The position numbers and the translations under genes are program-made. Below, piece by piece: positions 1 through 10,820 of a DNA stretch of 47,734 nt (position 1 is the first letter of the stretch; every line of letters starts with the position of its first letter). The stretch is from an uncultured Collinsella sp. (lineage in GTDB: Bacteria > Actinomycetota > Coriobacteriia > Coriobacteriales > Coriobacteriaceae): NCBI GenBank assembly GCA_944321445.1, contig CALULJ010000013.1:1-47734 (forward strand). The letters are read 5' to 3'. A model generated the notes under the pieces. The model searched no databases. It was not told the origin of the DNA and was given only the letters and a program-made list of their open reading frames with translations.

Positions 1-442
1 ATGCGCGGGGAGCACATGACCGTGCAGATGCCGTTCTCGTTGAGGGTGGGATCATCCCCGCATGCGCGGGGAGCACGCACATGTATACGAAACGAGACCA
101 CAACAGTCGGGATCATCCCCGCATGCGCGGGGAGCACGACACCTGGGAGTTGGTGAGCGTCGTGCAGGAGGGATCATCCCCGCATGCGCGGGGAGCACTT
201 CAGGGCGAGCCCATCGAGGTTACCGGTACCGGGATCATCCCCGCATGCGCGGGGAGCACTGCTCGGATAACGTCCGTTTCGTATCATTAGGGGGATCATC
301 CCCGCATGCGCGGGGAGCACGTTTTCGAGCAGTCGGGCCAAGAGCAGCAGTTGGGATCATCCCCGCATGCGCGGGGAGCACCCGCGCTCGATAAAGCAGT
401 AGCACGACAACTTGGGATCATCCCCGCATGCGCGGGGAGCAC
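1..442 (-). CRISPR. Type I-E CRISPR array (left end cut by the window)
   Basis: Seven complete 29-bp repeats begin at 48, 109, 170, 231, 292, 353 and 414, and an eighth is cut at position 1. The period is exactly 61 bp, so all complete spacers are 32 nt. On the minus strand each repeat has a CCCCGC-GCAT-GCGGGG hairpin followed by ATGATCCC. This is the Cas6e substrate geometry and predicts an 8-nt 5' handle. The repeats are identical to each other. The neighbouring cas genes and the hairpin polarity show that transcription runs on the minus strand, so the newest spacer is the one at 382-413. Short open frames across the array come from the repeats and are not genes. Confidence 0.98.
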
Positions 443-504
443 ACTTAAAATCCTGCGGCTACTCGCCCATCATCTCAGTGTTTGCTTCAGTTTATCAGCA
501 ATCG
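443..504 (-). promoter_or_regulatory. CRISPR leader
   Basis: This is the interval between the cas2 stop codon and the first leader-proximal repeat (414-442), read on the minus strand. It is more AT-rich than the array and ends in GGATTTTAAGT directly against the repeat. At about 62 bp it is short for a leader, so leader functions such as the promoter or an integration-host site may extend into the 3' end of cas2. No clear promoter hexamers were recognised. Confidence 0.6.
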
Positions 505-867
505 TCAATGCGAACCATACTTCCTGGCCCGTTGATGCTTCCTCGCATTGCTCCAACCTTTGCCGCTGGTACCCACGAGCGATGCGTCATCGGTTCCATG
601 AGGGCGCTTAACTAGCTCAACCCCTTCGCAGTCAACAACTTGCCAGTCTGGCTGAAATGTCTTGAAAGAGTAATGCTGCTCATTTCTTGCCGGGTATACC
701 ATAATTGCCCTGCCATCCCTCAGCATGTTGATTATTCTCGCCCAAAGCCTCTCCCGCAATCTGGCGGATATCCTGCCGACAAATACGCCTGGAGCAATCT
801 CCAGAAGCCATCTGCTCAAATCTCCCTTAACTCCAGCGGGGCACGATGTAAGCACAATCACCGTCAT
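505..867 (-). CDS. cas2: CRISPR-associated endonuclease Cas2, I-E type (Cas2e)
   Basis: Cas2 is the dimeric scaffold of the Cas1-Cas2 spacer integrase. The product (120 aa) starts MTVIVLTSCPAG and has the Cas2e pattern, with RWLLEIAPGVFVGRISARLRERLW at residues 19-42 and FKTFQPDWQVVDCEGVELVKR near 68-88. The start at 867 is chosen because its ATG overlaps the cas1 stop in an ATGA. An in-frame upstream start at 879 would add four residues. Typical Cas2e ends near residue 90-95; here a hydrophilic basic tail of about 30 residues follows, close to the leader. It is the last gene of the cas operon. Confidence 0.95.
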   Translation of the reverse strand: MTVIVLTSCPAGVKGDLSRWLLEIAPGVFVGRISARLRERLWARIINMLRDGRAIMVYPARNEQHYSFKTFQPDWQVVDCEGVELVKRPHGTDDASLVGTSGKGWSNARKHQRARKYGSH

Positions 868-1841
868 AGAGACTCCCAATCATCACTGGCATACAGCTTT
901 CCTGCGGGAACTTCGCCCTTGCGCTCATCCCAGATACCAACATGATTCTCTGCGCTATCTTCAGCGTCGTCCGAGGCAAACAGGTGCTTGATATCTGCCA
1001 CTACCCTATCAAGAATCGAAAGGTCATACATCGCATCGCGCATGGAACGTCTCACAGCCTGCCCGACATCTACCGGCTGCGAGGCAACGGTGCGGAACGC
1101 CACGGGAATCGACAGCTCGGCTTTATACAAATCGGCCATGTCGTACACAAATGAACGCTCATGACCAGTGTGCACAAAACCTAGTCCTGGAGAACAACCC
1201 ACTGCAACTATCGCCGCGTGCACTACGCCATACAAGCATGCATGCGCAGCCGATAAAGCCATATTGATATCGTTCGAATCAAAGTAATCATCAGGGTTGT
1301 AATCGCGACGGTCCCACTTAACGCCAGTTTCTTCAGAAAGCGCACGATAGACGCGACGAACACGGGCGCCTTCTTTGCCGCGCAGCTGCTGCATGGTAAG
1401 GCCGCTGACGTCCTCCCCGGGAAAACGCATTCCGTACATCATGCGGGCAACCCTCAAGCGCGATCGAGTATTGGACACAAGCTTCGCCTGCTTCTGAAGC
1501 AATGCGCTTGAATGGGTAAGCGGCCTGCCGAACGCGTACATCCGCACTCCGCGCTCCCCCACCCAGACAACTGTCGCACCGCTCTCGCCTATGGCGCTCA
1601 TGGCCTTATGGGAAACGGTCGTTCCTGGTCCAAGCATGAGCACACTCAAAGAGGCGGTAGGGATCCGTATCGTCCCCTCATCATCCAAAATGGTCAGGGC
1701 ATTATCATCTTGGTTGATCTTGCAGCGTTCAAAATAGAGAAATGTAATACGGTCAGAAACACGTGTAAGGTCTGCAACTTCAACGGGGGAAGCACTCGGA
1801 TGGGCGCTTCCCCCGTTAGACTCGGTGGCAGCTCTGTTCAT
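864..1841 (-). CDS. cas1: CRISPR-associated endonuclease Cas1, I-E type (Cas1e)
   Basis: This is the catalytic subunit of the spacer integrase (325 aa). The metal-binding residues of the family are visible: the Glu in RGKEGARVRRVY (middle of the protein), and the His and Asp in GLGFVHTGHERSFVYDMADLYK. The N-terminal beta domain contains IPTASLSVLMLGPGTTVSHKAM, a characteristic Cas1e stretch. The first ~20 residues and the last ~40 are low in conservation signals. An AAAGG ribosome-binding site precedes the ATG. It lies 43 bp after cas6e and overlaps cas2 by 4 bp, implying translational coupling of the two integrase subunits. Confidence 0.97.
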   Translation of the reverse strand: MNRAATESNGGSAHPSASPVEVADLTRVSDRITFLYFERCKINQDDNALTILDDEGTIRIPTASLSVLMLGPGTTVSHKAMSAIGESGATVVWVGERGVRMYAFGRPLTHSSALLQKQAKLVSNTRSRLRVARMMYGMRFPGEDVSGLTMQQLRGKEGARVRRVYRALSEETGVKWDRRDYNPDDYFDSNDINMALSAAHACLYGVVHAAIVAVGCSPGLGFVHTGHERSFVYDMADLYKAELSIPVAFRTVASQPVDVGQAVRRSMRDAMYDLSILDRVVADIKHLFASDDAEDSAENHVGIWDERKGEVPAGKLYASDDWESL

Positions 1842-1884
1842 GATTTGCCTTTCATACGGTTATCAAGGTACATAGATCGAATAA

Positions 1885-2553
1885 CTACAGGGAAGCTATG
1901 GTCATCATGCCGCAACCGAAGCCCTTGGCGCGCCCGATACCAAATCCGAGAGCACGCCTGAACCGATCCGAATCCTTAACGCGCAGGACGCCATCGAATT
2001 GTGCCGTAACCAGCGTGACCTTTCGACCAGCGCGATCGAACACCTCGCGTGACCTATGGGAAACGACAACGTCGGAGACATCGTTCACGAGACTGAACCC
2101 GTTTGGCTCGGCATGGCTTTCCAGCCATTCCAGCTGCTGCGTAACAGTCACATGGCCTTGAATCGTGCCAACAACCCCCTCATTGGGTCGCCGTCCCTTG
2201 TCTACCAAAACGCGCCTCACGGGATTTGCCTTAAGGCGAAATCGCCAAACGCCCCCTTGTGCCACTTTTGAGGAAAAAGGGAGGTAGTCTTTCGATGCAA
2301 CAGCATTCTCGTCGACCCCGAAACGCACGACAGCCTCTGACACTGCAGGGGCATCGGGGCTCACGATATACAGGCGAGCGCGCTCCGGTGACCCGCCATC
2401 GTCCACTCTCCAGAGAATTCGACAATTCGAATCCTCGTGAGCCGCATCGGAACCGAACAGCCCCTCAATTGCAGCATGCGTACGATAAGGAGAAGTGACC
2501 GTCTCCAGCGTTTTCCTGTGAGACAAATCGAGATCGATGCAGGATAGATACAT
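1885..2553 (-). CDS. cas6e: crRNA-processing endoribonuclease Cas6e (CasE/Cse3)
   Basis: Cas6e cuts the repeat RNA at the base of its hairpin and stays bound to the crRNA 3' stem as a Cascade subunit. The 222-aa product begins MYLSCIDLDLSHR, as in the family. Tyr23 and His26 match the catalytic pair described for the Thermus enzyme. A glycine-rich C-terminal loop, GIGRAKGFGCGMMTI, is present. The start at 2553 is preferred over the upstream in-frame one (2592), which would overlap cas5e, because a GGAGG sits 8 bp before it. It probably also processes the degenerate repeats at 6823-6911. Confidence 0.95.
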   Translation of the reverse strand: MYLSCIDLDLSHRKTLETVTSPYRTHAAIEGLFGSDAAHEDSNCRILWRVDDGGSPERARLYIVSPDAPAVSEAVVRFGVDENAVASKDYLPFSSKVAQGGVWRFRLKANPVRRVLVDKGRRPNEGVVGTIQGHVTVTQQLEWLESHAEPNGFSLVNDVSDVVVSHRSREVFDRAGRKVTLVTAQFDGVLRVKDSDRFRRALGFGIGRAKGFGCGMMTIASL

Positions 2554-2569
2554 GACAAGCACCTCCAAT

Positions 2570-3280
2570 CTATAACATCGCCATGGGATCATGGTCAGGA
2601 ACAGCTACAGCGCTTGCACGCCTGCTCGTCTCCGGCAGTCCGTCGGGATTGGGCACCCTAAACCGCACAACGGGACGGCACGCGTATCGCCTGCCGGTAA
2701 GGCCGAAGCTCAAGGGGTAATCGGCCTGGCTCTCGCAAGCCTCCCCATCGCGGGCGTCACATACCATCTCGAGCTCCTCGCCTTCGCGGCGACGACGATT
2801 CCACTCGGAGACGCACCATGGCTCGCCAGCAAGAACATCCCTTGCGTCTACGTCCTCTTCCAGCAAACGCACAAAAACGGGCGCATCGGGCGGGCATGAC
2901 CTTCGCCCTAAGAAAAGAGGCCACCGCGGCGCAAGTAGCGCGTTCTTGAGCTCGAGCAGGAAATCCAGCGGACCTCCAAGTGCGACAAGAAACTTCGCAT
3001 CGCTCAGATAGAAGCGGTGCGATAGCGGAAGCGCCTTCCCGTCCTCTAGTCGCTCTGTCTGAAAATCACGGATGATCTTCCCGGGCTGATCGATGCGTAT
3101 GACCAACTCAAGTTGAGCCAAATCGTCTACGGACTCCTCGCGGCCCCTGCCCAGTGCAGCAGCAAGCAGACCAACCACACCGCTTTTGGTCGGCTCATGC
3201 CTGGTCAGGCGTCGTGTGAAACGGGAAGAATCTCCCCATGACTGCATCGGTCCCGAGAAGCGCAAAACCAAAACGGCCAT
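2570..3280 (-). CDS. cas5e: Cascade subunit Cas5e (CasD)
   Basis: Cas5e binds the 5' handle of the crRNA and caps the Cas7 filament. The 236-aa product opens with MAVLVLRFSGPMQSWGDSSRFTRR and continues with TKSGVVGLLAAALGRGREE, both hallmarks of the RAMP-fold Cas5 of type I-E. Its start codon overlaps the cas7e stop by one base (TAATG), and cas6e follows 16 bp downstream. The handle it must recognise here is ATGATCCC. The degenerate unit at 6884-6911 keeps seven of these eight bases. Confidence 0.95.
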   Translation of the reverse strand: MAVLVLRFSGPMQSWGDSSRFTRRLTRHEPTKSGVVGLLAAALGRGREESVDDLAQLELVIRIDQPGKIIRDFQTERLEDGKALPLSHRFYLSDAKFLVALGGPLDFLLELKNALLAPRWPLFLGRRSCPPDAPVFVRLLEEDVDARDVLAGEPWCVSEWNRRRREGEELEMVCDARDGEACESQADYPLSFGLTGRRYACRPVVRFRVPNPDGLPETSRRASAVAVPDHDPMAML

Positions 3281-4410
3281 TACTCCTCCTCGGACAGCAC
3301 CTCGAGAGCCCCAGCCTTAACGGATTCGAGCAGCGTCGAAAGTGTCACGCGCTCGACACCATCCTCGAACTTCGGATCATCGTTCGTCGAAACAAGCCAC
3401 GCCTTCTCAGGCTTAACGCCATACGCATCGTCAAATCGCTTCATCTCCTTAGCAAGACGATTCTCTGCCTGTTCGGAAATCGACGAGCCTTCCATCGGAC
3501 GAACGGGATCCTCAAAAGCGCTCACAACATTCACGGGCTGCGACTTCCTGAAAGCGACAACCACGGTGCTCGGCAGCGTACGGTTCGCAAACGTATTCTG
3601 CTTACCAGTCGGCATCGAACGCACGAAGGCCTCAACAAATGCGGTGAGCCCTTCTGCCGTTGCCTGAGCATCTCCAAGCTGCGAAAGGAGGTTGTTCAAG
3701 TCAACAGTAGCGTAGCGGTACAGCGTAGAAGAATTGAATTCCACCGAACCGATCATCCCAGCACCGGCGTTATCTTCAGAAACGCAGTCATCCACAGCGG
3801 TGAAGTAGTCGTATTCTTGGGTCACACGATCAACCGAGAGCGCATGGGCAACCTGGCAAGAAGCATCGGTGTTCAGCGCCGGAGCATCGGCGAGCATGCG
3901 GCCGAACAGTGCGATATCAACTGCTTGAACACCATGGAATACATCGGCAGTCTGCTTCTTCATGTCCTTATCAACCTTAGAGAGGTCCTTCCCGGCATCT
4001 ACCCAACTGATGGCAACGTCGGCAAGCTCACTGAGCTCCCTTTTAGCGATGAACACGAGGTAATCCGTCTCCTGCACTCCCTCGGTCTCGCCCTTACGCT
4101 TGGATGCCTTCGTTTTGACACCAATTGCATTCAGTACGGCGATGCCCATCGCCTCCGCTTGGTTCCCCAAATCAGGACGCTTCTCGGTGATGATATCGTC
4201 AATCAGAGACACAGCGAGCTTGGTGCGAACGCCGAGCTTCTCCTTGGGAAGCAGATTCTTGAAGCTCAGACGCATGGCGCGCTTCCATGCCTGACTCGAG
4301 ACGCGAGCGCGCAGTGAGCCTCCGTACAGCGCGGTTTTCGGACTGCCAGTGTCGTCGCGGTTGATATTGCTCGAAGGAACGTTCTGGATTGCGTACAAAT
4401 CAACAAACAT
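3280..4410 (-). CDS. cas7e: Cascade backbone subunit Cas7e (CasC/Cse4)
   Basis: Cas7e is the repeated backbone protein that holds the guide in 5-nt segments, with every sixth base flipped out. The 376-aa product begins MFVDLYAIQNVPSSNINRDDTGSPK and contains GGSLRARVSSQAWKRAMR, both characteristic of Cas7e. The middle has the acidic, basic-rich thumb region expected of the family. Only 2 bp separate it from cse2 and it overlaps cas5e by one base, so the Cascade genes form one translationally coupled operon. Confidence 0.96.
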   Translation of the reverse strand: MFVDLYAIQNVPSSNINRDDTGSPKTALYGGSLRARVSSQAWKRAMRLSFKNLLPKEKLGVRTKLAVSLIDDIITEKRPDLGNQAEAMGIAVLNAIGVKTKASKRKGETEGVQETDYLVFIAKRELSELADVAISWVDAGKDLSKVDKDMKKQTADVFHGVQAVDIALFGRMLADAPALNTDASCQVAHALSVDRVTQEYDYFTAVDDCVSEDNAGAGMIGSVEFNSSTLYRYATVDLNNLLSQLGDAQATAEGLTAFVEAFVRSMPTGKQNTFANRTLPSTVVVAFRKSQPVNVVSAFEDPVRPMEGSSISEQAENRLAKEMKRFDDAYGVKPEKAWLVSTNDDPKFEDGVERVTLSTLLESVKAGALEVLSEEE

Positions 4411-4412
4411 GG

Positions 4413-5078
4413 TTAGTTCTCCCCTTCCTCAGGAGCCGCAGCATCCGAAACTGACCCGTCACGAGTCGTGAAAGCCCGGTAATAATCGCGCGACCAGCGC
4501 ATGAACACGTCGTCGCGACAACCATCAAATTGCATGAGATAAAGGTCACGAGCCAGCAAGTAGTAATCGACGGGAACATCATTCGCCCTCATGAGCTGGA
4601 TGAGTCCGCGCAGGCAGTTCTCGATACCGGCGAAATCCCTCGCCGCCTCCACCGATACCAACCGGCGCACGACGCCCGCAGCATTATCGATATCGGGCTC
4701 AATCTGCCGACACGACCAGCCAAACGTCCGGCGCGAACTATAGTTGTCGTCGTCAGCATCTTTAGGATTCAAGGCCATTGGCTTCTGCTTGGACTGCTGG
4801 TGCAGCGCATAGAGCTTGAGCGAAGCTTTGATAGTCTTGAGCATGCGGTCCTCGTCTTTTCGAGAGGCACCGATATCCGGAAGTCCCGAAAACAGTTCAT
4901 CTCCCGCTGAAGCCCAAGCCCCTCCAGATGGCTTATCGAGCCTCCTCAAGCGCGCAAGCGATGCGCGCGCGTCGGCAGAGCCTGAGCCAGAACCAAGAAA
5001 CGCCGATTGCAATCTCAAAACTTTGCGCGCGACATATGCGCCGATCAGATTCGCATTCTGATAGATAGATGTCGACAT
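4413..5078 (-). CDS. cse2: Cascade small subunit Cse2 (CasB/Cas11e)
   Basis: Cse2 dimerises along the belly of Cascade and stabilises the displaced strand. The product is 221 aa and mostly helical. Family-like segments are YVARKVLRLQ near the N-terminus, ARASLARLRRLDKPSGGAW, and LRGLIQLMRANDVPVDYYLLARDLYLMQFDG near the C-terminus. It follows cse1 by 16 bp. A start at 5078 after GAGG-type purines fits the spacing. The acidic C-terminal tail (EEGEN) has no assigned role. Confidence 0.92.
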   Translation of the reverse strand: MSTSIYQNANLIGAYVARKVLRLQSAFLGSGSGSADARASLARLRRLDKPSGGAWASAGDELFSGLPDIGASRKDEDRMLKTIKASLKLYALHQQSKQKPMALNPKDADDDNYSSRRTFGWSCRQIEPDIDNAAGVVRRLVSVEAARDFAGIENCLRGLIQLMRANDVPVDYYLLARDLYLMQFDGCRDDVFMRWSRDYYRAFTTRDGSVSDAAAPEEGEN

Positions 5079-5094: not shown

Positions 5095-6798
5095 CTATTC
5101 CTGAGCAGAGCCGTTTCCAGAAGACTCCACTTGTCCTTGACCTACAGATGGCAAACCGAGTAGCTTGTTTAGACTCACCCGGAGCCTTTCCAATGCTCTT
5201 CCCGCTGGCATCGCACCTCCGCCGAAGATTGAGACGTCCGATTCTGACAAATAGTCTTCGGCGATTCGCCAGAGAACTCTGCGCACTTCCTGCAGCCAAG
5301 ACGCGCTGTAGGCATATGGATCGTCTTCCGGCGTAAAATGAGCAATTCTGCTACGGAAGATGCCATCAAGCTCATCAAACGCCTGCGTAGCAACATCTTG
5401 CCGCGCGGCACCAGCAGCAGCATCTCCCATCGTGCTGTAACGCCGCTTGTCTCCCTGGGCAATCGAAACGTTCTGGACAAACCTGATGAGGGAACCGACC
5501 GCTGCATCAGTCTGCGCAATCACCTCGAGCGTTTTGACCGTCGCCACATCATCATGCCGGAGCATCATGGCATGCAACGACACCGCATCATCAACTCCAT
5601 CGGTGAAAACACTGTCCTGCGTGCCGTACTCCATGCCTTGGGCATGAATCGTCACGGTCGCACCCTTGTCTAGAGCTCCCTCGTCTTCCAATCTTTCGAC
5701 CCACCGAACAACGCCTGGACGCAAATCCGGCTGACCATCGGAACCCGCGCCGCCGTAAGCCAGCAACGACGAGAGTCCACGCCAAATACTCTTATTGGGA
5801 TCGTGCTTCCGCGCCATCCAAGGAACATACGGGAGCGACCATTTCTTCTGCTGCGCATCGCTCTTGCGCCAAGGGGTCATCATCTCGATACCCTGCTTGT
5901 CGATGGGCTTCATCGCGTCGCCGTAACAAAGCGCAACTCCTTTGACGCACGAATGATCGTCATCGAGAACAAGACGAATGCGCCGGCTTTGCCACGTGAG
6001 CAGCTGAACTGGGCCCACCGGCTCGCACTGGACCATATCGGGGCCGATATCCGTTCGCTCCCAAGGCGGCAAATCGCCGTCGATTCCAAAGAGCCCCTGC
6101 GAGCCGGAAAGGTCATCGAAAAGCACCCAGTTGAGCATAAGCGTCTCGAACAGGTTGCTTCCTTCGATGAACGTACCGCCGATGCCACCGCAGTTACCCG
6201 TACCCGGCAAGCCCTTCGGGGGATACACTTTTCCCTTATTGACATGGGTGTTGCCGGTTACTGGCGTTTTAATGCCAGAAGTGTCGTACCCCTGAGTCAC
6301 CACAAGGTACCGCGCTGCCTCGTCGAACGCGAGCGTTTCTGCATGTTTGATCGAGCGCATGGCGAACAGTGTCTTGTCTGCCTTAGCGGGCACATCGGGC
6401 ATGAGCGCACCGATGGGAGAAGGTTCTGCCGCAGCATACGACAACCCCGCCACCTGGTAGAACGGACGATCGCCAAAGAGATCGAACCCCTCGCGGCATG
6501 TAGAGAAATAATACGAAATGTCCTCCTGGGGGAACATGCCGTTATTCCAGAGGTCCGTCCACAAACCAAGAAGTTCGCCCTCCCGCATGCCCGGTGCTCC
6601 GAAGGCGCGATAGAGAATCGCCTCGCACAGGCGCAGCGTAACGAACTGCATCTGAGGGAGTTCTCCCGATATACCTCGAATCATGTGAGCATCGAAGAAC
6701 AATCTCTCGAGACCGACTTTCCGAGTTGACCCATCAAGCATTTCAACCTGAATCCAAGGTTCCGACAGCAGGTTGAATGTCGGGTCCCGTTGTTCCAT
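5095..6798 (-). CDS. cse1: Cascade large subunit Cse1 (CasA/Cas8e)
   Basis: Cse1 reads the PAM and recruits Cas3 after a full R-loop forms. The 567-aa product opens with the family signature FNLLSEPWIQV (residues 7-17). It has GELPQMQFVTLRLCEAILYRAF and a glycine-loop segment, GNCGGIGGTFIEGSNLFETL, in the middle, then a helical C-terminal half. The start at 6798 is chosen over 6828 because a strong AAGGAGG lies 5-8 bp upstream. About 200 bp of untranslated DNA separate it from cas3, unlike the tight spacing elsewhere in the operon. That gap holds the degenerate mini-CRISPR. Confidence 0.95.
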   Translation of the reverse strand: MEQRDPTFNLLSEPWIQVEMLDGSTRKVGLERLFFDAHMIRGISGELPQMQFVTLRLCEAILYRAFGAPGMREGELLGLWTDLWNNGMFPQEDISYYFSTCREGFDLFGDRPFYQVAGLSYAAAEPSPIGALMPDVPAKADKTLFAMRSIKHAETLAFDEAARYLVVTQGYDTSGIKTPVTGNTHVNKGKVYPPKGLPGTGNCGGIGGTFIEGSNLFETLMLNWVLFDDLSGSQGLFGIDGDLPPWERTDIGPDMVQCEPVGPVQLLTWQSRRIRLVLDDDHSCVKGVALCYGDAMKPIDKQGIEMMTPWRKSDAQQKKWSLPYVPWMARKHDPNKSIWRGLSSLLAYGGAGSDGQPDLRPGVVRWVERLEDEGALDKGATVTIHAQGMEYGTQDSVFTDGVDDAVSLHAMMLRHDDVATVKTLEVIAQTDAAVGSLIRFVQNVSIAQGDKRRYSTMGDAAAGAARQDVATQAFDELDGIFRSRIAHFTPEDDPYAYSASWLQEVRRVLWRIAEDYLSESDVSIFGGGAMPAGRALERLRVSLNKLLGLPSVGQGQVESSGNGSAQE

Positions 6799-6822
6799 CC
6801 CTTCCTCCTTCCTCACGTCGTT

Positions 6823-6911
6823 ACCCAAAGCCCCATATAAGTGGGGAACAAACTTAAGGAACAGCTACTATCAACTCCCATTAGGGATCACCCCGCAGGC
6901 GCGCTGGATCC
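6823..6911 (-). ncRNA. Degenerate mini-CRISPR, predicted crRNA-like regulatory RNA (CreR/CreA-like)
   Basis: Read on the minus strand, 6911-6884 is a degenerate repeat that matches 19 of the last 21 bases of the array repeat with one gap; the handle bases TGATCCC are intact. Exactly 32 nt follow (6883-6852, beginning TAATGGGAGTTGATAG). A second degenerate repeat at 6851-6823 then keeps 14 of the first 21 bases, including the CCCC/GGGG stem. In that stem one G-C pair is replaced by A-T on both sides, a compensatory change. The first repeat has lost two stem pairs. Guide length equals the array spacers. It sits inside the cas operon, which is where CreA and CreR RNAs are known to occur. Function is inferred, not shown. 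Confidence 0.8.
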
Positions 6912-6966
6912 GGAAGGGCAAACCGAATCCAGCGCATACGGGATCACACATGTTCCTTAAGCGCAT
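6871..6966 (-). CDS. Possible 31-codon ORF in the cas3-cse1 gap (CreT-like candidate or chance)
   Basis: An ATG at 6966 opens a frame of 31 codons ending in TGA inside the guide of the mini-CRISPR. The first codons are ATG CGC TTA AGG, and TTA and AGG are rare in a GC-rich genome. Known CreT toxins act through rare codons placed just after the start. Against this, there is no clear ribosome-binding site, and if the TAGAAT hexamer is the -10 element the ATG would not be transcribed. The protein has no recognisable domain. This is recorded as a possibility only. Confidence 0.2.
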   Translation of the reverse strand: MRLRNMCDPVCAGFGLPFRIQRACGVIPNGS

Positions 6967-7004
6967 TCTAACTAATGTGAGTTATAGCTTAACTTCTTAT
7001 CCGC
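6966..7004 (-). promoter_or_regulatory. Putative promoter of the cse1 operon with a seed target of the mini-CRISPR guide
   Basis: The plus strand at 6973-6983 reads TAATGTGAGTT, matching the first 11 guide bases except position 6. It is preceded by AAC at 6970-6972, a plausible AA-type I-E PAM; C is also the last base of the repeat. Beyond position 11 the guide does not match. On the minus strand two -10-like hexamers lie here: TATAAC (6986-6981) and TAGAAT (6971-6966). No convincing -35 was seen. The full protospacer would cover 6973-7004, including the end of cas3. Cascade bound here would sit on the promoter, while the short seed match should not trigger Cas3 cutting. Confidence 0.65.
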
Positions 7005-10000
7005 GAACGGCAGACAATCCACTCTGTCTGGAATACCCAACCCCCCATCCGAGAACTTCAGCCTGAAACATCTGCTCAGCACACTCACGCAGCGGAATGA
7101 TGAGCGAACCCGACAACCATCGCGAATCCTGCCATGCACCCACATATGGCCCGCTCATTTCCTCGAGTGCATCGAGCAACTCATCGATATCCCCACCGGG
7201 GCTCATTTCCAACGGCAAACGCACAGCACATCTCGAGAGTACCTTGGAAACCTGATCGTCTGGCTCAAATCTCGTGGGTATCCAGGCGCCCTTCTCAATA
7301 CCATGTTTTTCATCGCCAATCCACGGCAACAGGTGAAGGCCGTCATCTCGCTCGCATGCCAGTAGCACTTCAACGGTCTCCTGCGTGTCACGAACCGCGC
7401 GCGGGCCCCTGTCGTCATCGTGGCCACGCATCGCGTTTCTGCCCGTGTCCGCCCCATCCTCAAAGAGACCGACCAAGCTCTTGTGGTTCTTAACCAGATC
7501 ATCGATGGACTTGAGCAGACATGCATTGGCGCGATGTTTCTTCTCTTCCCAATGGAGACTCCTACGATCAACAGCCTCTGCATACCGTTCAGCCCAGCCC
7601 TGGGGCATAAACGATGCGGCATCTGAACCGTAGGCATTCTGGACCAAGCGCTCAATATCAGCAGGCAGATTAAGGCACACAACGTCATCGATATCCAAAA
7701 GACCAGCTACCGCGAGCGTTTCCATGAGTGCCGCCCGTTCATATACCGATTCAATTCCGCGGTCGAACTGGACCTCAGACTCGTCAATACCCAGAATACC
7801 GCGCACGAAACAACTCGCCCCACGTACGCTGGAAGGCCTGTCGCCCTCCCCTTCTCCGCGACGATGCCGATGCAGACGACCGACACGCTGCAAAAGAAGA
7901 TCGATTGGCGCTATGTCCGAAACAAGAACATCGAAGTCGATATCCAAGGATTGCTCGATTACCTGCGTGCCGACGACAATTAAGCGCTTTGGGCGCTCTC
8001 CGTTGGATGCATTAGCTTGCGGGCCGAGCAGCTTCCTGAGTTTTTGCTCGTTCTCCATCCTGTCGATGTCGGTAAAGCGGGAGTGCGTCAAAAGCACCTC
8101 ATCGGCCCCAAAGGCTTCTGACAGCACAGAGAACGAACGCTGTGCGCGCTTCACCGTATCGCAAACGACTCCTGCGCATCCGCCTTCGGCGAGCAGGCAC
8201 TTCAGCGTCTGGACCAATGAGAGTTGCTCATCCGGCAAGATGGAAAGCTTGATGCTCACTGAGCGAGACGACGGTTCCATAGCCTGGGAAAGCCTTTTGT
8301 TTCCGGATGTGTAAGTAATCAAGGGGTATCCCTCAACGCACGAAGACTCTGCGCAGTCCCTTTCCGAGCTGGCAGAGGAAACAGCCATTCCCATACGGCG
8401 CCGTCTTGTAAGTTCGATAAAGCTGATTTTCTCAGCACCGTACTCAGAAGCATCCTGCCCGGAATCCCCGTCCAGAGCAGTCCTCCCCCTGAGGTATGAG
8501 ACCACGAATTGATCGCGCTGCTCCGCAGGAAGCGTTGCTGAAAGCAAAATCACCGGAGCGTCCCATGAGCCAAGCCATTCGAGAGCGCGATTGAGGTATT
8601 GCTGCATGTACATGTCGTACGCATGGCACTCGTCGATGATCACGACCTTGTTAACGAGAGCAAGGTGGCGTAGAGAAAGATGCTTCATGTTGAGTGCGCC
8701 CATAAGCACCTGGTCAACCGTGCACACGACGAAGTTCGCGAGCATACCCTTCTTGCGCCCCTGCATCCAATCGGATACCTCGGCAACCGGAGAAGCGGAG
8801 ACCGATGAGTGCGGGCGGCCCCAGTCCAACAAGTCATCTTGATCGATGGCGCCGTACCTTGCCTGACGCGAAGCGCGAATCAGCCCCTGATATTCCTCGT
8901 TGAGGCCCGCCTTGCCGTGCGCCAAGAACATGCTCTCGGGATCATCGCCCTCGTGAGGCAGACGCTCAATCCAAGCATGGACACGACTGAACATCGCGTC
9001 GGTTGTTGCCATGGTAGGCAGCGCCACGCAGACTCCACCTCGAGAGCATCGATATCCAAGGATTTCCGCAACGGCTAACGCGGCTTCCGTCTTGCCCTCG
9101 CCCATTGGTGCTTCGATGATCATGAGGCCGGGACGATCGACTCCGAGAGCGATTTGCATCGCAGCCTCTTGCACGGGTCTTGGAGAAGCCGACTTGGGCA
9201 GCCCGAAGCGATCGACAAACGAATAGGTATCCCGGTTAACTGATGCAGCATTCCAACAAGAATGTATGTCGATATCATTCCAGGCACTCCGCGCGCGACG
9301 CTCGTACCACTCGGAAATCCCGCCTTCTTCGCTGGGCTCCCGCCCTGAAGGAATGACGGGCAATAACGGGTAGCAGCTTTGGTTACTCGCTATCCAATCC
9401 GCCATGATGACCAGTCCGGAGATCGCGCTCTCCACATTGACAGGCATCGAATCTGCATCGCGCACAGCCTTCTCGGAAGGATCGAATCCCGAAAGACGCT
9501 GGGCATATTCGATGAGCTCCTCTTGGACCTCCCGCCATGAATCCTCATGAGGTGCATCCCATCCAAGTGCTGGAGACAGCTTCTGAGCGCGCGCAATCTT
9601 TCCCAGTACGGACGGCTTGCCATGGTGAGACCCCACGATGCTTGCAAGGGCGCGAGCTTGTTCCCTGCTCCAGCCGCATGAATGTCGGAGATAGTCTTCA
9701 AGGATAACCTCGCCGGCAGCAGTATGCCTCACTCCACGCTCGGAAATAAGACAAGGCAAGATGTCGAGTCCAGCTCGTTCGGCCTTCCAAGAGAGGTCGC
9801 CTTCCTCGGAATCAAAACGTCCACGAGAGCTGATTTGGAACACTGGGGTCGCCTTTCCGATGTCATGGACAGCACCGAGAAAACCCACGAGCTCGCCGAG
9901 GCGCTCTTCTGCGATACCGCACTCGCGCGCAAGCATCGCCTTTACGCCAGAAGGCATCCACGTCTGCCAAAGCCTCGTGATGACGTCAAAACTGTCGTGC

Positions 10001-10161
10001 ATATGCACGACCAGCGGCAGCCACTCTTCACCGACCCCATAGTCAGACTTCGCCCATAGAGAACACGCCCGCTGAGACAAATCGTTCTGATTGGCTGCCC
10101 AGTCCATATCCACCCCTGCCGGATTGAAACCGCATTGCTTAGCGACACTAGTATCTCCCAT
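6997..10161 (-). CDS. cas3: CRISPR-associated nuclease-helicase Cas3
   Basis: Cas3 is the 3'-5' translocase and ssDNA nuclease recruited by target-bound Cascade. The 1054-aa product has an N-terminal HD nuclease domain (H53, H99-D100 in GAVHDIGKA, H146, H179-H180) and an SF2 helicase. In the helicase, Walker A APMGEGKTEAA lies near residue 350, DECH near 509, SATLP follows, and motif VI QRVGRLHRHRR lies near 760. All catalytic motifs are intact. The start is uncertain: 10161 lacks a ribosome-binding site, and an in-frame ATG at 10107 follows AGGGGTGG. It is 44 bp after the exonuclease gene and about 200 bp before cse1. Confidence 0.96.
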   Translation of the reverse strand: MGDTSVAKQCGFNPAGVDMDWAANQNDLSQRACSLWAKSDYGVGEEWLPLVVHMHDSFDVITRLWQTWMPSGVKAMLARECGIAEERLGELVGFLGAVHDIGKATPVFQISSRGRFDSEEGDLSWKAERAGLDILPCLISERGVRHTAAGEVILEDYLRHSCGWSREQARALASIVGSHHGKPSVLGKIARAQKLSPALGWDAPHEDSWREVQEELIEYAQRLSGFDPSEKAVRDADSMPVNVESAISGLVIMADWIASNQSCYPLLPVIPSGREPSEEGGISEWYERRARSAWNDIDIHSCWNAASVNRDTYSFVDRFGLPKSASPRPVQEAAMQIALGVDRPGLMIIEAPMGEGKTEAALAVAEILGYRCSRGGVCVALPTMATTDAMFSRVHAWIERLPHEGDDPESMFLAHGKAGLNEEYQGLIRASRQARYGAIDQDDLLDWGRPHSSVSASPVAEVSDWMQGRKKGMLANFVVCTVDQVLMGALNMKHLSLRHLALVNKVVIIDECHAYDMYMQQYLNRALEWLGSWDAPVILLSATLPAEQRDQFVVSYLRGRTALDGDSGQDASEYGAEKISFIELTRRRRMGMAVSSASSERDCAESSCVEGYPLITYTSGNKRLSQAMEPSSRSVSIKLSILPDEQLSLVQTLKCLLAEGGCAGVVCDTVKRAQRSFSVLSEAFGADEVLLTHSRFTDIDRMENEQKLRKLLGPQANASNGERPKRLIVVGTQVIEQSLDIDFDVLVSDIAPIDLLLQRVGRLHRHRRGEGEGDRPSSVRGASCFVRGILGIDESEVQFDRGIESVYERAALMETLAVAGLLDIDDVVCLNLPADIERLVQNAYGSDAASFMPQGWAERYAEAVDRRSLHWEEKKHRANACLLKSIDDLVKNHKSLVGLFEDGADTGRNAMRGHDDDRGPRAVRDTQETVEVLLACERDDGLHLLPWIGDEKHGIEKGAWIPTRFEPDDQVSKVLSRCAVRLPLEMSPGGDIDELLDALEEMSGPYVGAWQDSRWLSGSLIIPLRECAEQMFQAEVLGWGVGYSRQSGLSAVRG

Positions 10162-10205: not shown

Positions 10206-10820
10206 CTATTCGGGACGATGACCTATGCTTGTCAGGTACGGAATCGTTCCAGGCGCCCTATAGCGCGTACCGTCATCGTCAAGCATTCTTTTGAAGCACA
10301 GCATGGTAGCCCGTATATCCGACAGCGCATCATGGGGCGAGAACTCGATGCCATAATGCTGTGCGCATTCATGCAAAGGCCGCCACAAATTCTGGCCGTC
10401 TCTACCCCGAACCCGTGCAACAAACGCGTATTCCCTCATCACGTCAAAATACCAACACCTTGGCAACTCGATTCCAGCAGCTTTAAGAAAGCCGAGGTCA
10501 AAACGAAGGTTGTATCCCACAAGCAGCTCCGTATCTCGAAGAGTTTCAACGATTCGGCGCTTGTGATACTCGAAGAGCGGCTTATCGGCAACGTCGCTCG
10601 GAGATATGCCGGTCACCTTCTGTGCTGCCGGCCATGTTGAACGTCTTTCAGGCTTTACAAGCTCATTGAGCAGCGGCTCTCCGCCCCCGTTGACTATAGC
10701 GATCTGCAGAATCTCATCTTTGTCAGAGTTGAGCCCCGTGGTTTCCAGATCGATGCCTCGAATGCAATGAGGGTCGATCCCACGTAAACGAGCAATGTCT
10801 TTCGGTGAACAATGACGCAT
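10206..10820 (-). CDS. DnaQ-like DEDDh 3'-5' exonuclease, next to cas3
   Basis: This is a stand-alone 3'-5' exonuclease of 204 aa. All DEDDh residues are present: D24 and E26 in GIDLETTG, D108 in GYNLRFDLGFL, and H163 and D168 in PHDALSDIRAT. It has no polymerase or helicase domain. A strong AGGAGG precedes the ATG. It lies directly upstream of cas3 on the same strand (44 bp). In some type I-E systems a DnaQ domain is fused to Cas2 and trims prespacers; here Cas2 has no such domain, so a role in spacer capture is an attractive inference. A role in general DNA repair or with the upstream cassette is equally open. Confidence 0.88.
   Translation of the reverse strand: MRHCSPKDIARLRGIDPHCIRGIDLETTGLNSDKDEILQIAIVNGGGEPLLNELVKPERRSTWPAAQKVTGISPSDVADKPLFEYHKRRIVETLRDTELLVGYNLRFDLGFLKAAGIELPRCWYFDVMREYAFVARVRGRDGQNLWRPLHECAQHYGIEFSPHDALSDIRATMLCFKRMLDDDGTRYRAPGTIPYLTSIGHRPE

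Follow-up and report, generated by a model that had tools for sequence, protein, structure and literature searches.

A self-matching mini-CRISPR in the cas3-cse1 gap of Coriobacteriia type I-E operons is a likely CreR-type regulator of Cascade

CRISPR-Cas systems of types I-B, I-E and V-A are described as repressing their own cas genes through CreR, a mini-CRISPR RNA with partial complementarity to the cas promoter (Liu et al. 2023, Cell Host Microbe, as presented in excerpts of PMC13131331; CreR is also treated in PMC12737573 and PMC12948488). For the haloarchaeal type I-B RNA CreA, mutations established that seed positions 1–5 and 7–11 are required and that positions 6 and 12 are free (excerpts of PMC8501985), and in the type I-B system of H. 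hispanica, spacers of 21–24 nt repress strongly and those of 20 nt less so, with interference and primed adaptation gone at 24 nt (excerpts of PMC10989794). The phage RNA anti-CRISPRs known as Racr are likewise repeat mimics outside arrays, but they are viral inhibitors and not guides directed at a host promoter (PMC10651486). CreR is therefore already known for type I-E, and the elements that we describe here in Coriobacteriia appear to belong to that kind; CreR-type reports for the Collinsella lineage were absent from the matches listed in our literature searches (full text; titles and abstract starts; few subscription papers covered). Autorepression is also known from Cas9 (excerpts of PMC13131331). 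What it shares with CreR-type control is that the effector represses its own operon and that anti-CRISPRs relieve the repression. Its mechanism uses a long-form tracrRNA and a Class 2 effector and involves neither Cascade nor a mini-CRISPR.

The window analysed here, a 47,734-nt stretch of contig from an uncultured Collinsella sp., opens with a minus-strand type I-E locus in the order DnaQ-like gene, cas3, gap, cse1, cse2, cas7, cas5, cas6, cas1, cas2 and array (Table 1). The 198-nt gap between cas3 and cse1 houses two degenerate repeats, psiR1 and psiR2, with a 32-nt guide between them, where a first-pass annotation had placed a degenerate mini-CRISPR. A canonical CRISPR array was considered and ruled out for this module, since its repeats are degenerate and its guide is self-matching, and an Rfam search of positions 6500–7300 returned nothing at E-values up to 1. 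Elsewhere in the locus, the DnaQ-like exonuclease gene (10206–10820) lies immediately upstream of cas3 and is matched in the cas regions of 9 of 13 relatives. A second array of 26 spacers, with a repeat identical to that of the window, lies elsewhere in this genome, close to the end of contig C24 (L147, G000:C24:31986-33762), and is probably the continuation of the window array.

Table 1 Features of the type I-E locus and its mini-CRISPR module in the window
Feature	Positions	Strand	Remarks
Partial type I-E array	1..443	(-)	Truncated at contig end; 7 copies of 29-nt repeat, 61-nt period
cse2, cas7, cas5, cas6, cas1, cas2	505..5078	(-)	
cse1/casA	5095..6798	(-)	First gene behind mini-CRISPR module
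psiR2, degenerate 3′ repeat	6823..6851	(-)	Hairpin CCCCAC-TTAT-ATGGGG
Guide TAATGGGAGTTGATAGTAGCTGTTCCTTAAGT	6852..6883	(-)	32 nt
psiR1 core	6884..6903	(-)	19 identities, one mismatch, one gap versus last 21 nt of array repeat GTGCTCCCCGCGCATGCGGGGATGATCCC
Handle-like GTGATCCC within psiR1	6884-6891	(-)	
Extended psiR1 hairpin, predicted	6886..6945	(-)	About 22 bp, 9-nt loop; fold of leader 6823-6961, z -6.3
Leader arm CTTAAGGAACA	6951..6961	(-)	Complementary to distal guide half 6853-6863
Predicted -10 of cse1 promoter, TAGAAT	6965..6970	(-)	By consensus only
PAM AAC	6970..6972	(+)	Equals array PAM
Seed target TAATGTGAGTT	6973..6983	(+)	Mismatch at position 6
Full 32-nt protospacer footprint	6973..7004	(+)	Inferred from guide length; over weak predicted -35
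Predicted -35, TTAAGC	6987..6992	(-)	Weak, 3/6; 16 nt from -10
cas3	6997..10161	(-)	

The alignment of psiR1 to the array repeat bears out the earlier claim that the 5′ repeat keeps 19 of the 21 terminal bases with one gap. Its 5′ half is more than worn: the canonical 6-bp hairpin is missing, and a long hairpin is predicted there within a leader fold that buries part of the guide. What had been said of the 3′ repeat also stood: psiR2 retains the CCCC/GGGG stem of the array hairpin, and its fifth pair has changed in a compensatory manner from G-C to A-T. The sixth pair is broken (C/A). The distal half of the guide (6853–6863) pairs exactly with 6951–6961, which is the predicted start of the leader. 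In Collinsella tanakaei (L015), an analogous pairing joins the distal guide half and the leader start in other letters.

The start of the guide (TAATGGGAGTT) agrees with TAATGTGAGTT at 10 of 11 positions; the annotated match, its sole mismatch at position 6 and the AAC directly 5′ of it were all borne out by the sequence. Dinucleotide shuffling of the target region, repeated 1000 times, never gave a full score at the ten read seed positions. With position 6 left free, the seed is present only at the guide and its target in the entire window, and AAY followed by the window seed has a single occurrence in the 2.36-Mb genome.

To place this module among its relatives, cas operons were collected through Cse1, for which 148 relatives gave 14 positives and 396 genomes sampled from the class gave 31 (own genome included). 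A profile (alignment) search of genome contigs yielded 74 named Cse1 loci; a query with a single Cse1 gave 59 stretches of genome contigs, no relative among them. The comparison set comprised 31 distinct Coriobacteriia loci including the window, with duplicates counted once and with G357 left out (its cse1 match fell in two pieces). In 10 of these loci cas3 and cse1 overlap, and in the other 21 they are separated by a gap of 122–272 nt. A handle-like stretch, a guide, a psiR2 and a matching site flanked by AA(C/T) were found in 20 of the 21 long-gap loci, whose hosts include C. tanakaei, C. ihumii, C. massiliensis, Parafannyhessea umbonata, Thermophilibacter mediterraneus, Enorma burkinafasonensis, Olsenella and Ca. 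Aveggerthella. The sole exception, L021 (gap of 272 nt), has no recognisable guide-site pair, possibly through loss; together with the 20 element loci it forms one Cse1 branch (SH-aLRT 100 in a quick tree of 31 rows). psiR2 alone folds as a hairpin in all 20 loci, with altered arms in L022; by visual count, 13 of the 20 have a short hairpin of 4–8 bp immediately preceding the handle. The letters of these pre-handle stems differ, which suggests that the fold has been conserved as the sequence drifted. The hairpin is lengthened in both the window and C. tanakaei, where the leader start also pairs with the distal half of the guide. L022 (Collinsella sp. BA40) is also of note in that its psiR1 is a nearly intact repeat, its psiR2 is strongly altered and its site is found at the end of cas3.

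The first-pass annotation had named relatives with independently drifting seed and site as grounds for its refutation, and this check did not refute it: the 20 loci carry 19 different seeds among their guides and 20 among their targets, and each guide matches its own target at 8–10 of the 10 read seed positions. In a matrix of all guides against all targets over these positions, own pairs averaged 9.05 of 10 (a mean that takes L138 too low owing to a cut region, its rescored value being 10) compared to 6.44 off the diagonal, and the observed fit was matched by none of 100,000 label permutations. Only 9 of 380 crossed cells reached 9 of 10, and none reached 10. Four loci (L023, L029, L033 and L034) have a seed score of only 8 and are singly weak (shuffle p 0.04–0.06). 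Across nine pairs that are phylogenetically separate, 90 seed cells were compared: 29 had changed on both sides yet remained paired, 50 were unchanged, 10 had changed on one side and 1 had changed on both sides to an unpaired state; at positions 6 and 12 of the same pairs, paired double changes were found in 0 of 18 cells.

The match between guide and site also has a rhythm along its length. Counts of matching loci at guide positions 1–21 (n = 20) were 20, 20, 16, 20, 20, 5, 20, 20, 15, 18, 17, 4, 17, 13, 14, 9, 12, 4, 8, 6 and 4, against a chance level of about 29% per position. Within the first 18, positions 6, 12 and 18 are thus at chance (5, 4 and 4 of 20), with lesser dips at positions 3, 9 and 16 and a fade to chance beyond 19; position 6 differs from the other seed positions with a Fisher p of 1.3e-11, a value that ignores the relatedness of the loci. 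The profile over positions 1–20 did not depend on whether targets were chosen chiefly by the ten read seed positions or by all 11 with equal weight. Guide positions 6, 12 and 18 are the ones flipped out by type I Cascade. Judged on sequence, the free positions are the footprint of Cascade base flipping. The earlier statement that pairing stops after 11 nt needs qualifying: the window does pair by its seed only, but several relatives pair beyond nucleotide 11.

The flanks of the self-sites are AAC in 16 loci and AAT in 4 (n = 20), with AAY making up 146 of 2396 background positions (6.1%). In type I-E, the last base of the repeat derives from the PAM, as known from E. coli. Among 699 array repeats that base was C in 594, T in 79, G in 20 and A in 6. 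Phage searches were performed with the arrays of L015, L020, L019 and L023, and PAMs were taken from the L015 matches only: protospacers were flanked by AAC at 4 of 4 places for one spacer behind a repeat ending in CCC, by AAG at 2 of 2 behind CCG and by AAT at 1 of 1 behind CCT, and for one further spacer behind CCT the PAM was GAG and not AAN. Array repeat ends and L015 protospacers together indicate that the self-site bears the PAM of the system itself. The stretch L149, matched in many Collinsella genomes, aligned to no L015 spacer. In the same searches, several pieces per phage record (JX006077.1, MT835722.1, OL455886.1 and kin) aligned to the array queries with identities of about 70%, and these pieces may be type I-E-like repeat arrays.

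In the window, the seed site sits between the predicted -10 and -35 of the cse1 promoter. A strict sigma-70 promoter scan of 6780–7080 found none, and a terminator scan likewise found none. Across 19 loci (L138 left out), boxes of the TAnnnT type, with a start allowed anywhere between the final PAM base and a point 7 nt further on, gave a summed score of 84 compared to 50 ± 7.5, a value equalled in none of 500 shuffles. Five of six consensus bases are present in 10 of these 19 loci, and only three in L016 and L022. In L016 and L138, site and guide are so closely spaced that there is barely room for a promoter between them.

The anatomy, the match, the identity of the PAM and the persistence of the match across 20 loci of differing sequence, in which positions 6, 12 and 18 are free, are direct observations. 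The element is very likely a CreR-type autoregulator, in which guide-loaded Cascade would bind the seed site and repress the predicted cse1-cas2 promoter. Transcription would start just beyond the PAM, which would place the guide inside the 5′ leader of the Cascade mRNA, and Cas6e would cut at psiR1 and psiR2 to release one guide per transcript. Cascade bearing this guide would cover the -35/-10 region, and the limited pairing (seed only in the window; guides of 20–21 nt in most relatives) would leave Cas3 unrecruited and thus the chromosome uncut. Once Cascade is drawn off by array crRNAs or anti-CRISPR proteins, the promoter would become available again. The CRISPR machinery would then act as a thermostat on its own production, a role made likely by the guides and sites of 19 relatives, which differ from those of the window yet still largely match each other.

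The closest alternative is an addiction module of the CreTA type, in which the repressed promoter would drive a small toxin RNA encoded by the leader, with the guide serving as the antitoxin CreA. The elements do resemble CreA of CreTA in their two degenerate repeats and seed rule, and CreA of H. hubeiense also regulates its own promoter (excerpts of PMC8501985 and PMC9458426). However, the estimated leader from transcription start to psiR1 is at most 61 nt in 19 of 20 loci, absent in two (L016 and L138) and different in each locus, and in the window it is occupied by the extended hairpin. The next gene, moreover, is cse1, whose start codon lies 32–59 nt past the psiR2 hairpin. Unlike in CreTA, no toxin was found, there is little or no room for one, and the target would drive cse1-cas2; the earlier mention of CreA is unsupported in its toxin sense. 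A toxic RNA of very small size may nevertheless be encoded, but we consider this alternative very improbable. Slightly less probable still is a riboregulator that operates without Cascade, whereby guide and site, which are indeed complementary on the operon strand, would form the arms of an RNA stem in a cas3 read-through mRNA that controls cse1. Such a stem would account for neither the AA(C/T) PAM in 20 of 20 loci nor the free positions 6, 12 and 18, it leaves the handle and the hairpins at the guide ends unexplained, and the site would be untranscribed if the predicted promoter holds. An operator bound by a transcription factor would be consistent with the inverted repeats present (for example, 6853–6863 and 6951–6961), but the diversity of seeds among the 20 loci argues against one conserved operator and makes this reading exceedingly unlikely. 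Equally implausible is that a decayed remnant of an array matches the site by chance, a reading for which the degenerate repeats might speak but which the permutation, PAM, positional and co-change tests over 20 loci contradict.

Returning to the CreR-type autoregulator, the length of its guide is a further feature shared across loci. The annotated 32 nt hold true of the window but are exceptional among its relatives, as the guide measures 20–21 nt in 18 of 20 loci and 33 nt in L015; array spacers are nearly all 32–33 nt. A more specific form of this reading, to which we give even weight for and against, is that a leader-encoded CreR is ancestral to an entire branch of Coriobacteriia type I-E systems, provides one guide per Cascade transcript with a length set on the 6-nt Cas7 ruler, and thereby keeps count of unoccupied Cascade, with Cas3 never being armed. 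On such a ruler, guides of 20–21 nt would be two steps short and would form a binding-only Cascade, and those of 31–33 nt would be full length.

A further scan covered the region upstream of cas3 and the gap in 57 loci, mostly from other Actinomycetota, after 15 of 72 had been dropped beforehand for lack of a detectable repeat. A mini-CRISPR-like guide was found in 33 of them, and in 15 it had a seed score of 9–10 with an AAN PAM, compared to 0.3 loci expected from shuffles and an average of 2.0 when five other dinucleotides served as control; in view of that control mean, some of the 15 may be chance (L077 and L078 look weakest). The nine gap-less Coriobacteriia loci in the same scan gave no seed of 9. 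Among the 15 candidates, positions 6, 12 and 18 match in 3, 6 and 3 cases, and guides measure 20–21 nt in 11 and 31–33 nt in 4. Over all lineages (35 loci), guides are thus 20–21 nt (29) or 31–33 nt (6) with nothing between. All 15 pairs whose layout was placed (14 of the 15 candidates and L042) have their guide upstream of the site and outside the unit to be repressed; the Coriobacteriia layout is unlike this, its guide lying within the predicted leader of the unit that it would repress. CreR-like pairs at likely cas promoters were noted in L040, L043, L047, L054, L055, L057, L061, L063, L065, L070, L079, L090, L091 and others; the hosts of these actinobacterial type I-E pairs include Bifidobacterium minimum, Microbacterium, Mobiluncus, Corynebacterium and Frankia, among others, and the pairs have mostly 20–21-nt guides and AAN PAMs. 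In the L070 gap of Frankia nepalensis, the guide matches two adjacent sites (AAT with a seed of 10 and AAC with a seed of 9), possibly a doubled operator.

With published CreRs the Coriobacteriia elements share an ectopic, degenerate mini-CRISPR beside the cas genes, a PAM-flanked seed match at positions 1–5 and 7–11 and the joint maintenance of guide and site. The likeness is one between elements predicted from sequence and CreRs known here by their description in the excerpted sources, and within that comparison the placement of the guide in the predicted leader of the unit that it would repress and the guide lengths of 20–21 or 31–33 nt are possibly distinctive.

The natural covariation is a strong argument for type I-E Cascade having been retained as a gene regulator throughout one bacterial branch, since the 20 pairs, for all their differences in sequence, have preserved seed, PAM and 6-nt rhythm alike. 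These pairs are also test objects for short-guide Cascades that would bind without cutting and for how a CRISPR system may sense its own load. Furthermore, the 15 additional candidates among 57 operons, mostly from other Actinomycetota, suggest that self-regulating guides may be common there.
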